This document shows, in pieces, positions 20,907-26,396 of a DNA stretch of 34,855 nucleotides. Each line of letters starts with the position of its first letter. Position 1 is the first letter of the stretch. The DNA is from an uncultured Planctomyces sp. (GTDB taxonomy: Bacteria > Planctomycetota > Planctomycetia > Planctomycetales > Planctomycetaceae), in NCBI GenBank assembly GCA_937899075.1, contig CALDJX010000123.1, forward strand, positions 1 to 34,855. Reading direction: 5' to 3'. The notes below the pieces were generated by a model. The model was given only the letters and a program-made list of their open reading frames with translations, did not search any database and was not told where the DNA came from. Both the position numbers and the translations under genes were made by a program.

Positions 20907-22439
20907 TTAGTCACCAGCGTTGCGAGTTGCCAATCGCTGCAACACTTCGGGCGACGTCTTGTTCGAAAAGAATCGAACGCTGCCGTCTCCTTGAAGAAAG
21001 TGGGCTCCGGTTCCGGCGGCGTTTCCGAAGCTCGACAGTCGTTTGTTGAGCGGACCTTCGATCGTTCGCCAGTTTTCGGGATCGCCCCAGGCAGGGAGCG
21101 CTCGGGCGATTTCTCCGGCGATCAACGTCTGCGACATTCCGTCTGTGACGTCTTCGAATCTGATCGCGGAGTTCTTGTTGAAGATGCCCGTTGGCAGCAG
21201 TCCTTGATCGGTTTGAATGAGGCCTCCGACTCCTGCGAAGTGAGTGGTCGCCAGGCCTCGTGCAGTTGGCTCGTGCTCCATCGTTGGAAGCAGAAAAGTC
21301 GCGACTGGTTGCCGCATCGCGGATGCGTTGGCGTCGTCGTTCCAGGGTTTTGAATGTTCGATCGAATTGTAAAGTTCCGTTTGCCCGAGGTACGGAAGCA
21401 GCGAAGTCATCCAGCTGTGCATGCCGACTTCCAGGCCTTCTTCGTCAACGGCGAACGTTCCGCCTGAAGGGAAGTGGCCTTTTTCGATCGCATAATCATT
21501 CAGAGCTTTGTGGATGCTGCCGAGGTTTGATTCGGTGACTTCTTTGGCCGACCGGTTTCGCCACGAGTCGCCGAGTTCGTTCAGGTAAACCGGTCCGGCA
21601 AAAATGCCGACCAGGCCGAGCAACATTCCGACCGGCGCAAGAACCTGCGGCATCGATTCTTTAAGTCGACGATTCGAACCGAGTGTTTGATAGCCGAGCA
21701 AAAGTGCGTAGCCGCCCACGATCGTTGCGGGGAATTTGGCGACCATCGACGGCAACAGGCACAACCCGCACAGCAGAACAGCGAAGCCGCCCGCGACGAC
21801 CGAACCCGTGCCGCGTGGGAGTGCTGGCGGACTCAAAGATTTGGGCGATGAATCATCGGCTGAAAGTGAAGAGTCGGCCGTGTCGAGATCATGGAGCGGC
21901 GATTCAACTTCCCAACCGTCTTCTTCGTCGTCATCCGCGAGCGAGTCGTCATCGTCCAATTCATCGTCGTCGAAATCCGAATCGGACGTTTCAGAAAACT
22001 CCGAATCCAGTTCCGAGAAGTCGTCGTCTATCGAAGTTTCGTCTACTTCTTCTGCGGACTCCGAGGCCGGGTCTTCTGTCTGGGCCGCATCTGCTGCTGG
22101 TGTTGCCCCCATCATCGCCCACAGGCCGCGAGGTCGTTCAGTCGTCTCGGGCTGATCGTGCTCGGCGGATGCGGCTTCAGCCGGAGCGATTTCCTTCGGA
22201 CTGTCTGCTGATACTGCGTCGCCTGAAGATGCGTCGGCAGTGGCTGCATCGTCGCTCGACGGTCGCCCCATCACTTCCCAGAGGCTTCGGCCGGAGCCAG
22301 AGGAAGGTGTGCCGTTTTCGATACTCACGTCGGATCCGCATTCTGGACACGCAACGCATTGATCCGAAGATGCCTGTGACTGGGCTTCGAAGCGGTGGCC
22401 GTTCGGGCAGGTGAGGGTTCGGTCGTTCGAGTCTGGCAT
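20907..22439 (-). CDS. DUF1559 protein with zinc-ribbon and acidic linker
   Basis: The protein has 510 residues. A zinc-ribbon-like start (TCPNGHRF, then CVACPECG) is followed by a long acidic, Ser/Asp/Glu-rich linker (about 50-205), two hydrophobic segments (GGFAVLLCGLCLLPSMVAKF and LLGLVGIFAGPVYL), and a DUF1559 domain from about 300. The domain shows ESNLGSIHKALNDYAIEKGH, SWMTSLLPYLGQTELYN, RFEDVTDGMSQTLIAGEIA and the terminal FLQGDGSVRFFSNKT. DUF1559 proteins are abundant in planctomycetes and are usually pilin-like with an N-terminal prepilin helix. Here the domain is fused to a cytoplasmic ribbon and membrane anchors instead. No clear ribosome site is seen. Function unknown. Confidence 0.88.
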   Translation of the reverse strand: MPDSNDRTLTCPNGHRFEAQSQASSDQCVACPECGSDVSIENGTPSSGSGRSLWEVMGRPSSDDAATADASSGDAVSADSPKEIAPAEAASAEHDQPETTERPRGLWAMMGATPAADAAQTEDPASESAEEVDETSIDDDFSELDSEFSETSDSDFDDDELDDDDSLADDDEEDGWEVESPLHDLDTADSSLSADDSSPKSLSPPALPRGTGSVVAGGFAVLLCGLCLLPSMVAKFPATIVGGYALLLGYQTLGSNRRLKESMPQVLAPVGMLLGLVGIFAGPVYLNELGDSWRNRSAKEVTESNLGSIHKALNDYAIEKGHFPSGGTFAVDEEGLEVGMHSWMTSLLPYLGQTELYNSIEHSKPWNDDANASAMRQPVATFLLPTMEHEPTARGLATTHFAGVGGLIQTDQGLLPTGIFNKNSAIRFEDVTDGMSQTLIAGEIARALPAWGDPENWRTIEGPLNKRLSSFGNAAGTGAHFLQGDGSVRFFSNKTSPEVLQRLATRNAGD

Positions 22440-22678: not shown

Positions 22679-23626
22679 TTAGACCGGTTTATGCAGGCGC
22701 GAGCTGACGTCGCGGAGTCGGCTGACCTGTTGGATCAATCGTGGCAGATTGTCGAGCCCCATCAGCAGCAGCATGAGGTACCGGAAGACGGCAAAAATGT
22801 CTCCCGCCTGGACGGCTGGAAGCTGACACGCTCGGAACAGCACAGCGACGATCGCACCCAGGATGAAGCATTCCATCAGGCCGAAGTTGATGGCTTCGGC
22901 ATTTGAAAGTTTGATCCGCCAGCGGGCGACTTCGTCGAAGTGGTTTCGTACGCCGATCTCGTTTTGAGAATTGATGACGTCGACTTCGCGTTCCAGTTCG
23001 TCGTGCAGACCTCGGCTCAGGCGACGTGTCCAATTTGAATAATGGTGACTGAGCAGCGCCGCCGGAATCAGCAATGCCAGACAACACGCGACGATGAACC
23101 AGTCGTACCAGGCCAGCATGATGACCGAGCCGACGACGGAGAATCCGACCTTCATCAACATTGGAATCGAATTTTCGAAGAACTCGACAAACTCGCGAGA
23201 GAGCGATGCCCGGGCCGTGACGCGCGAGACGTCAACGCCGGATGCTCGCTGCGAAACGATCATCTTTGTCGCGAGGTCCGAGTAGATCGCCGCGAAGGTT
23301 CGCGTGTCGTAAACCTGTCGGACAAGCCCGACGATCAAGTGCAGAACATGCTGCCCGACCAGCACGCCGACTCCGAGCATCTGCCCGGCCAGCAGGTCGT
23401 TGATCGCCCAGCCCAGCGCGAACGGCTGAGCGAGCCGGAGTAGATTCTCGATCGTAAATAGCGTGTACGTTGCGAGAATTCGGACGCGGTTTTGAGAAAA
23501 AAGTGTTTGCAGCCGAAACTGCGAAGTGTCTGGCATCGAGTGGCGTCTTATTGAGGGTTGCGACTTAAGTGAGGTTGGGATCGAACCGACGTCCATTCGA
23601 GAAATAACGGGGATGTCGATAGGCAC
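22679..23626 (-). CDS. ABC-type six-helix membrane protein without ATPase domain
   Basis: The protein has 315 residues. The sequence resembles an ABC exporter transmembrane domain: ATYTLFTIENLLRLAQPFAL, GWAINDLLAG, DTRTFAAIYSDLATKMIVSQ, SREFVEFFENSIPMLMKVGF, SVVGSVIMLAWYDWFIVACC, LALLIPAALLSHHYSNWTRR and GLMECFILGAIVAVLFRACQ. It ends right after the last membrane region (MLLLMGLDNLPRLIQQVSRL), with no Walker motifs, so the ATPase part is missing by design or loss. A strong AGGAGG, 7 nt before a GTG at 23626, fixes the start. M at 23536 is an alternative start. It lies downstream of the putative RiPP genes on the same strand, with a repeat in between. Confidence 0.82.
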   Translation of the reverse strand: MPIDIPVISRMDVGSIPTSLKSQPSIRRHSMPDTSQFRLQTLFSQNRVRILATYTLFTIENLLRLAQPFALGWAINDLLAGQMLGVGVLVGQHVLHLIVGLVRQVYDTRTFAAIYSDLATKMIVSQRASGVDVSRVTARASLSREFVEFFENSIPMLMKVGFSVVGSVIMLAWYDWFIVACCLALLIPAALLSHHYSNWTRRLSRGLHDELEREVDVINSQNEIGVRNHFDEVARWRIKLSNAEAINFGLMECFILGAIVAVLFRACQLPAVQAGDIFAVFRYLMLLLMGLDNLPRLIQQVSRLRDVSSRLHKPV

Positions 23627-23691
23627 GGCTCGTCCTCCTGAATTCATGTCGCGTCAGCATTCGCCACGTCGGTTTTGCAGGGTCAGCATTC

Positions 23692-23801: not shown

Positions 23802-24572
23802 TTAGCTGAACGCGATGAGGCCGACTTCGCTGCAGTCGGTCAGCATTTCCATCAGCGATTCGTCGTCGAGCGAAGTTGTCAGTTCGAGTTGCTTCTTCAG
23901 TCTTGCGAGGCTGCACTGGCCGATGTCGGAAAGTGTTTGAACGAGGGATCGACCTTCCGGTTCGAGAATCACCGTTCGCACTTCGTTTTGAAACGCGAAG
24001 AACAGAACTTCGACGCCGTCTGGTGGATAGTCGTCCTCGCCGATCAGCAAACCTGTTTCGAAAACGGCTCGCGTTCGCAGCGGGTTAAGATGAATGCCCA
24101 ACGAAGGATTCGTTGTCAGTTCTTTAACCAGTTGGTCGTTGAGGCTGACCAGTTCCTGAAACCGCACATGGCCCAGCCGATTACGTCGCCCGGCTTCTTC
24201 CACTGCAAAGCGGCTGCGAATGACAAGCGTCAGGTCGCGCTGCTCGGGTGTGAGTTCCGTGACGGTCGGCAGCCATCTTACGAATCGATCGGCATCGCTC
24301 GCGCCGGTGTCGTAAGCGGCCAGCGGAATCTCGTGAATGTACCGGCTGATGAATGTCGGCAGCGCGTCGAAATCTTCCTCGAAGTCTTCAAACTGATCGG
24401 TCAGCTTGTCGGCACGCTTGCTGAGGTTCCCTTCGGTGAACATGCCAACTCGGTCATGCGGTTGCCCGGCGGCGACGTCACCGTGCACGACATCGTTGTC
24501 CGCGATGGCGAGCGACGTGGCGATGCGGGCAAGTTGTGCCGCGTAATCTTTCAGGATGGTTTCGCTGCTCAT
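23802..24572 (-). CDS. Putative MNIO partner protein (HvfC/BufC/MbnC-like role)
   Basis: The protein has 256 residues and overlaps the DUF692 gene by 4 nt (ATGA), so the two are translationally coupled. I do not recognise the family with certainty. The N-terminal half is helical (LKDYAAQLARIATSLAIADN, DQFEDFEEDFDALPTFISRY). The C-terminal part (ILEPEGRSLVQTLSDIGQCS, LARLKKQLELTTSLDDESLM, EMLTDCSEVGLIAFS) looks like a winged-helix unit, as in the DUF2063/HvfC partners of MNIO enzymes that bind the precursor peptide. Position next to DUF692 is the main argument. It is probably cytoplasmic: no signal peptide or membrane segment. It may be a divergent or new partner family. Confidence 0.7.
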   Translation of the reverse strand: MSSETILKDYAAQLARIATSLAIADNDVVHGDVAAGQPHDRVGMFTEGNLSKRADKLTDQFEDFEEDFDALPTFISRYIHEIPLAAYDTGASDADRFVRWLPTVTELTPEQRDLTLVIRSRFAVEEAGRRNRLGHVRFQELVSLNDQLVKELTTNPSLGIHLNPLRTRAVFETGLLIGEDDYPPDGVEVLFFAFQNEVRTVILEPEGRSLVQTLSDIGQCSLARLKKQLELTTSLDDESLMEMLTDCSEVGLIAFS

Positions 24573-25411
24573 GCCGGCACCTCGACCTGTTCCGCGATCT
24601 CGCGAACGCGGCGGATTTCTGATCGCCAGCCGGCTTCGTCCGGGAAATCCTGGTCACGCTCGACGAAGACGGCGTCGACCTTGCCACGTCCTTGCTCCAG
24701 CGAAAATCGATACAGGCCCCACACCGCGTCGGGAATCGGTTCGGAGTGGCTGTCGATGTACATGTTCGATCGTTCGTCGAAGTAGCCGCCGGCCAGGTGC
24801 ATCTGCACGGTTTCGGCGTGAGGCATCACCGACGCGATGAATTCGTACGGGTCGAAATTGAAGTTGGTCGCGTTGGCGTAAACGTTGGTGACGTCGAGCA
24901 GCCAGCCGCAGCCCGTGCACTTGAGCATCTTTGAAACGAAGTCGGCTTCGGACATCGTGCCTTGGAATTCGAACAGGTACGCGATTGTTTCGACGTAGAA
25001 GCGAGTGTCGCGGAGCCGCTTCTGAATGTGGTCGATGTTTCGACACGTTGCGGTCAGCGCGGCGTCGGTCCACGGCGGCGGAGCGAAGTGGCCCATCTCG
25101 ACGCCGTTGTCGCCGTCGCGGGTAAAGCCCAGGTGGTCGCTGACGGATGACGCTCCGTTTTCGATCGCGATCGCTCGCAAGGCTTCGAGGTATGTTTGAT
25201 TTGGTGGTTCCGGACTGGCGACCGACAGTTTCAACGCGTGAACGCTGACGTGTTCGACGTCGAGGTCCTGGATGTACGTGTCGACTCGGAGCGGATCGTC
25301 GGCTCGTTCAAAGGTGATCTCGGCAGCGTTGATGGCCGGGTCGTCCATGATCGGTCGGTTCTGCTCGCGAATCGCGTAGCCGATGGCGGGTGTTCCGGGG
25401 GGATGATTCAC
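24569..25411 (-). CDS. DUF692 / MNIO iron-dependent peptide oxidase
   Basis: The protein has 280 residues. The DUF692 (multinuclear non-haem iron oxidase, TIM-barrel) signature residues are all present: VSDHLGF (Asp92-His93), FYVETIAYLF (Glu141), GWLLDVTNVYANATNF (Asp173, Asn176), VQMHLAGGYFD (His205), IDSHSEPIPDAVWGLY, and VFVERDQDFPD (Glu251). Characterised family members modify cysteine or nearby residues of ribosomal peptides using iron and oxygen, for example MbnB in methanobactin and TglH. The GTG at 25411 follows GGAG by 6 nt and is preferred to an upstream TTG. It is encoded 124 nt downstream of a Cys-rich 42-residue peptide and overlaps its partner gene by 4 nt. Confidence 0.93.
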   Translation of the reverse strand: MNHPPGTPAIGYAIREQNRPIMDDPAINAAEITFERADDPLRVDTYIQDLDVEHVSVHALKLSVASPEPPNQTYLEALRAIAIENGASSVSDHLGFTRDGDNGVEMGHFAPPPWTDAALTATCRNIDHIQKRLRDTRFYVETIAYLFEFQGTMSEADFVSKMLKCTGCGWLLDVTNVYANATNFNFDPYEFIASVMPHAETVQMHLAGGYFDERSNMYIDSHSEPIPDAVWGLYRFSLEQGRGKVDAVFVERDQDFPDEAGWRSEIRRVREIAEQVEVPA

Positions 25412-25479
25412 CGTGATCTCCAATCGGGTGTTTATGTGAGGGCGGCTGTTCAAGATACAGGCTCAAAGAAAACACGACC

Positions 25480-25504
25480 GCCAGACTGATAACCGGGGTC
25501 TGGC
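25480..25504 (-). terminator. Attenuator-like hairpin between peptide and MNIO genes
   Basis: On the minus strand GCCAGAC and GTCTGGC form a 7-bp stem around an 11-nt loop. A T-rich stretch (GTTTTCTTT) follows about 6 nt later. It sits in the 124-nt gap between the peptide stop and the oxidase start. Partial termination here would give more peptide than enzyme, which is common for RiPP precursors. Confidence 0.5.
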
Positions 25505-25535
25505 ATCAGCCCGGCAGTCGTTTCATTTTCTGGCG

Positions 25536-25664
25536 TTACCGACGGCAACGGCAGCAGCGGCAGCAGCAGTGACGCTCGGCTGCTTTTTTCGCTCGTTCTG
25601 AAGTCCGCAGCGATTTAATTTCGCGGACGGCTTTCTGTTTCGTCTGTGTGGCTGAGTTCGTCAT
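25536..25664 (-). CDS. Candidate RiPP precursor: 42-residue Cys/Arg-rich peptide
   Basis: This ORF is too short for the usual ORF limit. It has an ATG at 25664 preceded by AGAGGAA (6-7 nt spacing). Residues 1-31 are polar and basic, helix-like and Cys-free (MTNSATQTKQKAVREIKSLR, then TSERAKKAAER), fitting a leader. The C-terminus HCCCRCCRCRR holds six cysteines at 33, 34, 35, 37, 38 and 40, with Arg between them, fitting a core. No signal peptide. It lies directly upstream of, and co-directional with, a DUF692/MNIO gene, as most MNIO precursors do. I know of no named precursor with this Cys-Arg core. Alternative: a chance product of a GCA-rich triplet run, or a small metal-binding peptide. 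Confidence 0.72.
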   Translation of the reverse strand: MTNSATQTKQKAVREIKSLRTSERAKKAAERHCCCRCCRCRR

Positions 25665-26396
25665 GGGGATTTCCTCTTCTTCATCGTGCCGCGAGAACGG
25701 ACCGGCCAGGCTTCTAAAGAAGTTTCAGCACGGGCGTGCTCGAAGCATCACTTTGTTCGGCACCGGCCAGAGAACACCTCAGCCGACGCTCCGGCTACTT
25801 CCGGATTGACGAGGGTTCAAAGAAGGCACGACCGATGCCCGAAACGCTGCAGAGCCACTCGGTAGGGTGCACAACATGCTTCAGTGAAGAGGGTTAGCAC
25901 CTTTCAAAGAATTTTCGCGATGCAGTCGGCGGTGAGTGTGGCGGATGTCAGAGCGACCGCAGCGGCAGTCTGTCTGATGACATGGCAGGACGCATCTGGC
26001 GATTTTTGCGGGCTGCGTCAGAGAAAGTGGCGTGCTTCTTAGCCGGCTCAGAATCTGGCCTGTCGACGAAAAACCCACGCAACAGTTCAGCGAGACTGCG
26101 GAAATCAGGCGATTCGGGATGGATGCCCTGTGCCGAGCGGGTAATGCGACTCTGGATTTGAGTTTACACGCTTCCGGGTTCTCACTATATGTTCGCGGCG
26201 TTGCATTCGGGCAGAGACTGCGCCTGTTCCCTGGACGTGTCTGCCTGTTAGTCAGAGGTTTCTTTGAATGAACAAGGGCCGCTGATTGGCTGGGCGAGGT
26301 TGCCTTCGGTGCAACGCTCACTTGCCTGCTCAAAACTGAGTGGCAGCATGATGTGCCACCTGACGCGAATATGAACAATTCCTGGAGGAAACTCTC
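25665..26396. promoter_or_regulatory. Divergent region between peptide gene and acpP, 732 bp
   Basis: It must hold the promoters of the minus-strand peptide operon and of plus-strand acpP. Two perfect palindromes lie 47-76 nt upstream of the peptide start: CTTCTAAAGAAG (25711-25722) and AGCACGGGCGTGCT (25727-25740); they could be operators. A strong ribosome site (TGGAGGAA) precedes acpP. An antisense open frame (25881-26435) has no ribosome site and overlaps acpP, so it is rejected. No other gene is seen. Confidence 0.5.

Follow-up and report, generated by a model that had tools for sequence, protein, structure and literature searches.

Organization of the locus

The window, by which we mean the whole 34,855-nucleotide stretch of a planctomycete contig that was analysed (G000:C123), carries on its minus strand four co-directional genes in the order peptide, MNIO, partner and PF13748 protein. 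The first gene (25536–25664) starts with ATG about 7 nt downstream of a ribosome-binding site, AGAGGA (25672–25677), and encodes a 42-residue peptide, MTNSATQTKQKAVREIKSLRTSERAKKAAERHCCCRCCRCRR, with a basic, Cys-free first part and an Arg-rich tail containing six cysteines, just as the initial annotation had described. Two segments can be distinguished within it, a leader motif VREIKSLRT (25602–25628), proposed to be a recognition sequence, and a proposed core CCCRCCRCRR (25539–25568). No hydrophobic stretch indicative of a signal peptide is present in the window peptide, and it gave no match to family models.

The second gene (24569–25411) encodes an MNIO (DUF692) oxidase of 280 aa that matches PF05114 with an E-value of 1.1e-53. 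The enzyme and its ligand motifs had been recognized earlier, with TTG 25453 as the start codon; the true start is probably GTG 25411, behind GGAG (25418–25421), and is favoured because homology in other genera starts only past that point, with the TTG lying upstream of the homologous region. Counting residues from the TTG reading, the ligands are H72, H107, E155, D187, N190, H219, D234, H236 and E265, of which all but N190 are also given by alignments to 3bww, TglH (a weaker match than 3bww) and MbnB. The catalytic base is D267, which aligns through its ERD context with Asp249 of FonB, the proposed base of that enzyme. All ten residues are conserved in each of the 39 full-length clade members checked.

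The partner gene (23802–24572) overlaps the MNIO gene by the 4 nt that had been reported (ATGA, 24569–24572). Its product has no Pfam match, with DUF2063 absent from all 13 orthologues searched against Pfam, and because a sequence-only PDB search returned nothing meaningful, a fold comparison was needed. The AlphaFold2 model (pLDDT 87) has a helical N-terminal domain followed by a sheet-plus-helices, RRE-like C-terminal domain, and its only high-probability PDB matches, all at probability 1.00 with modest Foldseek E-values of 1.9e-3 to 1.8e-2, are TglI (8hi7_A, 8hci_A) and NGO1945 (3dee), both of them MNIO partners; MbnC scored an E-value of 3.2 in the fold search. A tblastn match to the partner is found near the MNIO at 39 of 40 loci. 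Judged from the model, the protein fits PME-type 2, the term of Antoine et al. for such partners, in lacking the DUF2063 signature, having a fold like that of DUF2063-RRE proteins, and being encoded after the MNIO; such partners are found with signal-less precursors, according to the text of that paper (PMC12452194).

The fourth gene (22679–23626) was missed in the initial annotation, which had correctly listed the other three. It has a probable GTG start after AGGAGG, within a longest ORF of 22679–23647, and the protein (322 aa) matches PF13748 (E-value 8.3e-52) with no ABC_tran match. Its fold is that of an exporter-type transmembrane region resembling BmrA, MsbA and PCAT1, such that the protein has the transmembrane part of an ABC exporter and lacks an ATPase domain in the same polypeptide. 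Strong PF13748 matches occur in 27 of 170 genomes, every one of which encodes an MNIO of this clade. The gene adjoins the cluster in most genomes, lies 17–19 kb away in G008, G095 and G096, and is on another contig in G036; among the 40 named loci it is within 4 kb downstream in 23, and several others are cut by contig ends. This ties a transmembrane-only family to RiPP biosynthesis, and no report of PF13748 together with DUF692, or in any RiPP cluster, was found in the literature searched, which comprised papers outside subscription and their main texts.

The cluster is flanked by acpP/fabF-like genes at one end and the gene of a DUF1559 protein at the other; these flanks vary among genera, and within about 8 kb only the MNIO, partner and PF13748 genes are conserved across them. 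Neither a dedicated leader protease nor a metal-responsive gene is encoded within the cluster, and no immunity gene was seen at it. The DUF1559 protein (20907–22439, minus strand) has a zinc-ribbon-like start and an acidic low-complexity segment, and is found downstream of the cluster in the window's genus alone. One genome contains two complete cluster copies (L097, on G136:C104, and G136:C237). Three loci labelled Candidatus Kuenenia stuttgartiensis (L144, L146 and L149) have clusters near-identical to ones filed under Planctomyces sp.; the labels look wrong.

A precursor family with a constant leader and changing cores

Ribosomally made, post-translationally modified peptides (RiPPs) typically derive from precursors in which a conserved leader precedes a variable core, and a family of this kind emerges upstream of the orthologous MNIO genes. 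Located 5′ of these genes are short ORFs that have ribosome sites and encode a common leader followed by (RCC)n; the leader consensus is KKAVRELKxLRTxDxxKKxAERH, or [VI]REL..LRT in short form. Among 29 family members, R14, E15, L19, R20 and T21 are invariant or at least 90% conserved, and C35, R36, C37, C38, R39 and C40 are invariant among the (RCC)n members, which differ in repeat number. Nucleotide changes in the precursor genes are mostly synonymous, with pN/pS ratios in three genera of 0.20, 0.12 and 0.15 for the leader and 0.09, 0.07 and 0, respectively, for the core. The precursor, its core included, is thus under purifying selection within genera.

An alternative is that the peptide stays unmodified, as a metallothionein-like or regulatory product encoded next to an MNIO gene, or that it comes from a chance ORF in a GCT/GCC-rich repeat. 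It draws on the observation that the CCRCCRC DNA pattern alone also arises by chance in other genomes, with a reversed control matching in many of them; being unspecific in this way, the pattern was not used alone as evidence. Leader conservation, the ribosome sites, the pN/pS ratios, the co-occurrence with the MNIO, the unlinked copies that carry the same leader, and the absence of the precursor where the MNIO is degenerate (see below) all speak against this alternative, which we regard as very improbable. A chance ORF or microsatellite in particular is ruled out by the leader conservation, pN/pS ratios and co-occurrence together with shuffling of the window, as 100 dinucleotide shuffles gave no frame of at least 30 codons with six cysteines in the last 12 residues, compared to one in the real window. 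The peptides therefore constitute a genuine precursor family. TIGR04117 matches one of 23 precursors (E-value 3e-5), probably on account of a repeat with Cys at every fourth residue, and this match was not used as evidence.

The cores change while the leader stays, which is the hallmark of RiPP precursors; the conserved motif and the core diversity had both escaped the initial annotation, although its account of a Cys/Arg tail stands. In addition to (RCC)n cores, L166/G100 has (LERCGR)n, Gemmata sp. IIL30 (L164) has (CxRG)n, L162 has (CRS)n, L165/G036 has CRRCRSCRRC, and L161/L163 have FCHGCHA. Cores carry up to eight cysteines, many internal cysteines are invariant, and the C-terminal residue differs among precursors (W, R, F, N, H or S). 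The natural set of RCC, LERCGR, CxRG, CRS and CHGC cores on near-identical enzymes provides a ready substrate panel. Moreover, DUF2063-associated systems have no recognisable recognition motif (PMC12710340), and the clear leader motif of the planctomycete family makes leader binding and substrate scope directly testable. One genome contains three tandem precursor copies (L142/G101), which are near-identical and spaced about 445 nt apart (L081:4007–5025).

Co-occurrence of precursor and enzyme

A profile of the precursor was searched in 170 genomes of the bacterial family, and strong matches were obtained in 30, of which 28 are among the 34 genomes that encode the MNIO. Both are thus present in 28 genomes, the precursor alone in two, the MNIO alone in six, and neither in 134, an association with a Fisher P of 6e-24 that is too optimistic because the genomes are related by kinship. 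It does not derive from a single clone, since the overlap covers 13 genera. The precursor family as a whole, with leader and Cys/Arg core, is found in at least 13 genera, and G517 represents another family of the class, with an MNIO 60% identical and the precursor ...HHRCCRCCRCCRGGRRKKK.

The initial annotation had proposed that its reading would fail if homologous DUF692 loci lacked a Cys-rich ORF at this position. Among 40 named homologous loci, with MNIO identities of 57–91%, a leader-bearing Cys-rich precursor lies directly 5′ of the MNIO in 33, and in four (L139, L143, L151 and L157, in G117, G095, G008 and G096) a precursor with the same leader is located elsewhere in the genome, with two unlinked copies in G117. 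L160, whose contig ends 151 bp upstream of the gene, and L170, a fragment, have no upstream precursor. At L152 an orphan clade MNIO with intact ligands (L152:4001–4819) has no partner, PF13748 gene or precursor nearby, and the genome gave no precursor match. Genes encoding MatE, Fic, FBPase, histidine kinases and Omp85 are among the neighbours of the unlinked precursors, with no clear shared theme; that of G008 adjoins the Fic-domain gene (L087:2132–3841).

Two further patterns bear on the pairing. First, three MNIO homologues nested in the clade (L093:9017–9847, L094:10185–11180 and L096:9099–10205; genomes G031, G033 and G108) are 42–49% identical, sit on long branches and have lost several Fe ligands; they are apparently degenerate or repurposed. 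None of these genomes has a significant precursor match, as expected if the intact enzyme acts on the peptide. Secondly, G134 and G135 (L127 and L126) contain a diverged precursor with the leader VVTQLSALRT and lack the enzyme; the sequence analysed around these orphan precursors contains neither an MNIO gene nor one for the partner or PF13748 protein.

Relationship to known MNIO systems and a proposed pathway

The MNIO scores far under every named NCBIfam cut-off, with bit scores of 150 against a cut-off of 310 for BufB, 136 against 360 for HvfB, 72 against 400 for ApyH, 37 against 600 for ChrH and 27 against 325 for MbnB, and its reaction is therefore not readable from homology. In the tree a split with 100/100 support sets its clade apart from the remaining planctomycete MNIOs. 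The position after the catalytic base is Gln in most clade members, Ala in L162 and L164 (with CRS and CxRG cores), Asp in L165, and Glu in L128 and L167; in captophorin enzymes it is Phe (Lys-Cys type) or Asp (Cys-Lys type; PMC13097082).

The system shares with the captophorins, bufferins and oxazolins (BufABC, HvfABC and FonABC) the A-B-C gene order, a Cys-rich precursor, an RRE-bearing partner, the same MNIO ligands and catalytic base, and a basic residue beside Cys, which is Lys in those systems and Arg here. It differs from captophorins and bufferins in having no signal peptide, no DUF2063 partner (the signature is absent, although the fold is related), no DUF2282/EGKCG or Lys-Cys core, an MNIO under the BufB and HvfB cut-offs, Gln instead of Phe or Asp after the base, and a PF13748 protein in the cluster. 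With methanobactin (MbnABC) it has in common a short signal-less precursor, an MNIO, a partner and cysteines as the likely targets; however, the enzyme is well under the MbnB cut-off, the partner is not methbact_MbnC-like, and the cores are Arg-spaced, with as many as eight cysteines, and follow a conserved leader motif. The Adjamnio families whose partners are of PME-type 2 (Antoine et al. 2025) also have, according to the text of PMC12452194, a signal-less Cys-bearing precursor and a non-DUF2063 partner of related fold, but are larger or have CxxC/CxxCC motifs; that text describes no Cys-Arg precursor among them, and an unnamed mention in its supplement is possible.

Resemblance to the pearlin/3-thiaglutamate system (TglHI) raises the alternative that the peptide is a scaffold to whose C-terminus Cys is added, altered by a TglH-like MNIO and released by a protease. 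TglI is the closest solved fold to the partner and neither peptide has a signal peptide, but nothing in the neighbourhood points to a peptide aminoacyl-tRNA ligase, given that only the MNIO, partner and PF13748 genes are conserved there across genera. The planctomycete core is moreover internal and multi-Cys, with internal cysteines often invariant while the C-terminal residue changes, and the MNIO matches 3bww better than TglH, such that this alternative is very improbable. By the features tested, the system is not captophorin/bufferin, methanobactin or pearlin.

The interpretation given in the initial annotation holds for the most part. Its reading of the locus as a RiPP system is in all likelihood correct, and is supported by the upstream precursors at homologous loci and the match of the partner model to MNIO partners. 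Its suggestion that the Cys-Arg core is unlike known precursor types also holds, as the core matches none of those in two MNIO surveys. A search for CCRCCR-like motifs returned only primers and unrelated matches, and no Cys-Arg precursor, or planctomycete member of such a kind, was found in the literature searched (papers outside subscription, main texts). What emerges is a real MNIO RiPP family for which, within the reach of these searches, no earlier report exists, and one that adds a coherent precursor family to a group of enzymes many of which have no assigned substrates.

We propose that the 42-residue precursor carries no signal peptide and that the partner would bind its leader, VREIKSLRT, through an RRE-like C-terminal domain. 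The MNIO, as a multi-iron oxidase paired with the partner, would then use iron and oxygen to oxidise several cysteines of the Arg-spaced core, and passage across the membrane, of the product or of a metal complex of it, would fall to the PF13748 protein. This overall reading, with leader binding by the partner, Cys oxidation by the MNIO and movement of the product by the PF13748 protein, is one that we consider very probable, and the four-gene cluster would represent a new gene-encoded natural-product family with probable modification and transport roles. Counted against it are the lack of a protease or metal-responsive gene in the cluster, the low MNIO scores for every named type, the modest Foldseek E-values of the partner, the Gln beside the catalytic base, unlike the Phe or Asp of captophorin enzymes, and the two genomes with a precursor and no MNIO.

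Known products of Cys-acting MNIOs include oxazolone-thioamides, thiooxazoles, 3-thia amino acids and macrocycles (PMC12452194), and the known Cys-modifying MNIO products bind copper (PMC12452194, PMC13097082). By analogy with these relatives, the oxidation may be a four-electron one (−4 Da per site) yielding a thiol/thione heterocycle, either 5-thiooxazole or oxazolone-thioamide; a new group is a further candidate. Four-electron oxidation and soft-metal binding are the most likely outcomes because the base and the iron site are intact and a basic residue lies beside Cys; we give the −4 Da modification about an even chance, and binding of a soft metal such as copper by the product slightly less than that. 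FonBC does not accept a substrate in which Cys is followed by a charged residue, and related enzymes need not therefore treat Cys-Arg alike.

A different, undescribed MNIO chemistry could act on the Arg-Cys-Cys unit, for example forming a ring that joins adjacent cysteines or uses the Arg side chain. Arg-spaced Cys-Cys repeats are not among the precursor types of the two MNIO surveys, the enzyme clade is strongly separated in the tree, and Gln occupies the specificity site, all of which are consistent with such chemistry; however, the ligands and base are as in ordinary Cys-oxidising MNIOs, and single-Cys cores (LERCGR, CxRG) occur with otherwise intact enzymes, so the family can do without a Cys-Cys pair. 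We regard this alternative as possible but doubtful. Similarly tentative is the wider proposal of a new, planctomycete-specific RiPP class, where an MNIO-partner pair guided by VREL..LRT would act on unlinked precursors too, place an undescribed modification on Arg-spaced cysteines, and rely on ATPase-less ABC-type transport. As to function, the highly basic core, its diversification between lineages and the membrane protein dedicated to the cluster would also suit a peptide that leaves the cell via the PF13748 protein to act as a cationic antimicrobial or as a signal, instead of binding metal, but the strong purifying selection on the core within a genus, the lack of a visible immunity gene, and the copper binding of the known products make this unlikely.

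The host genome encodes a second, distant MNIO (34% identical; G000:C320:24717–25451), and sequences like it form a separate long-branch group in the family, with lengths of about 300–330 aa.
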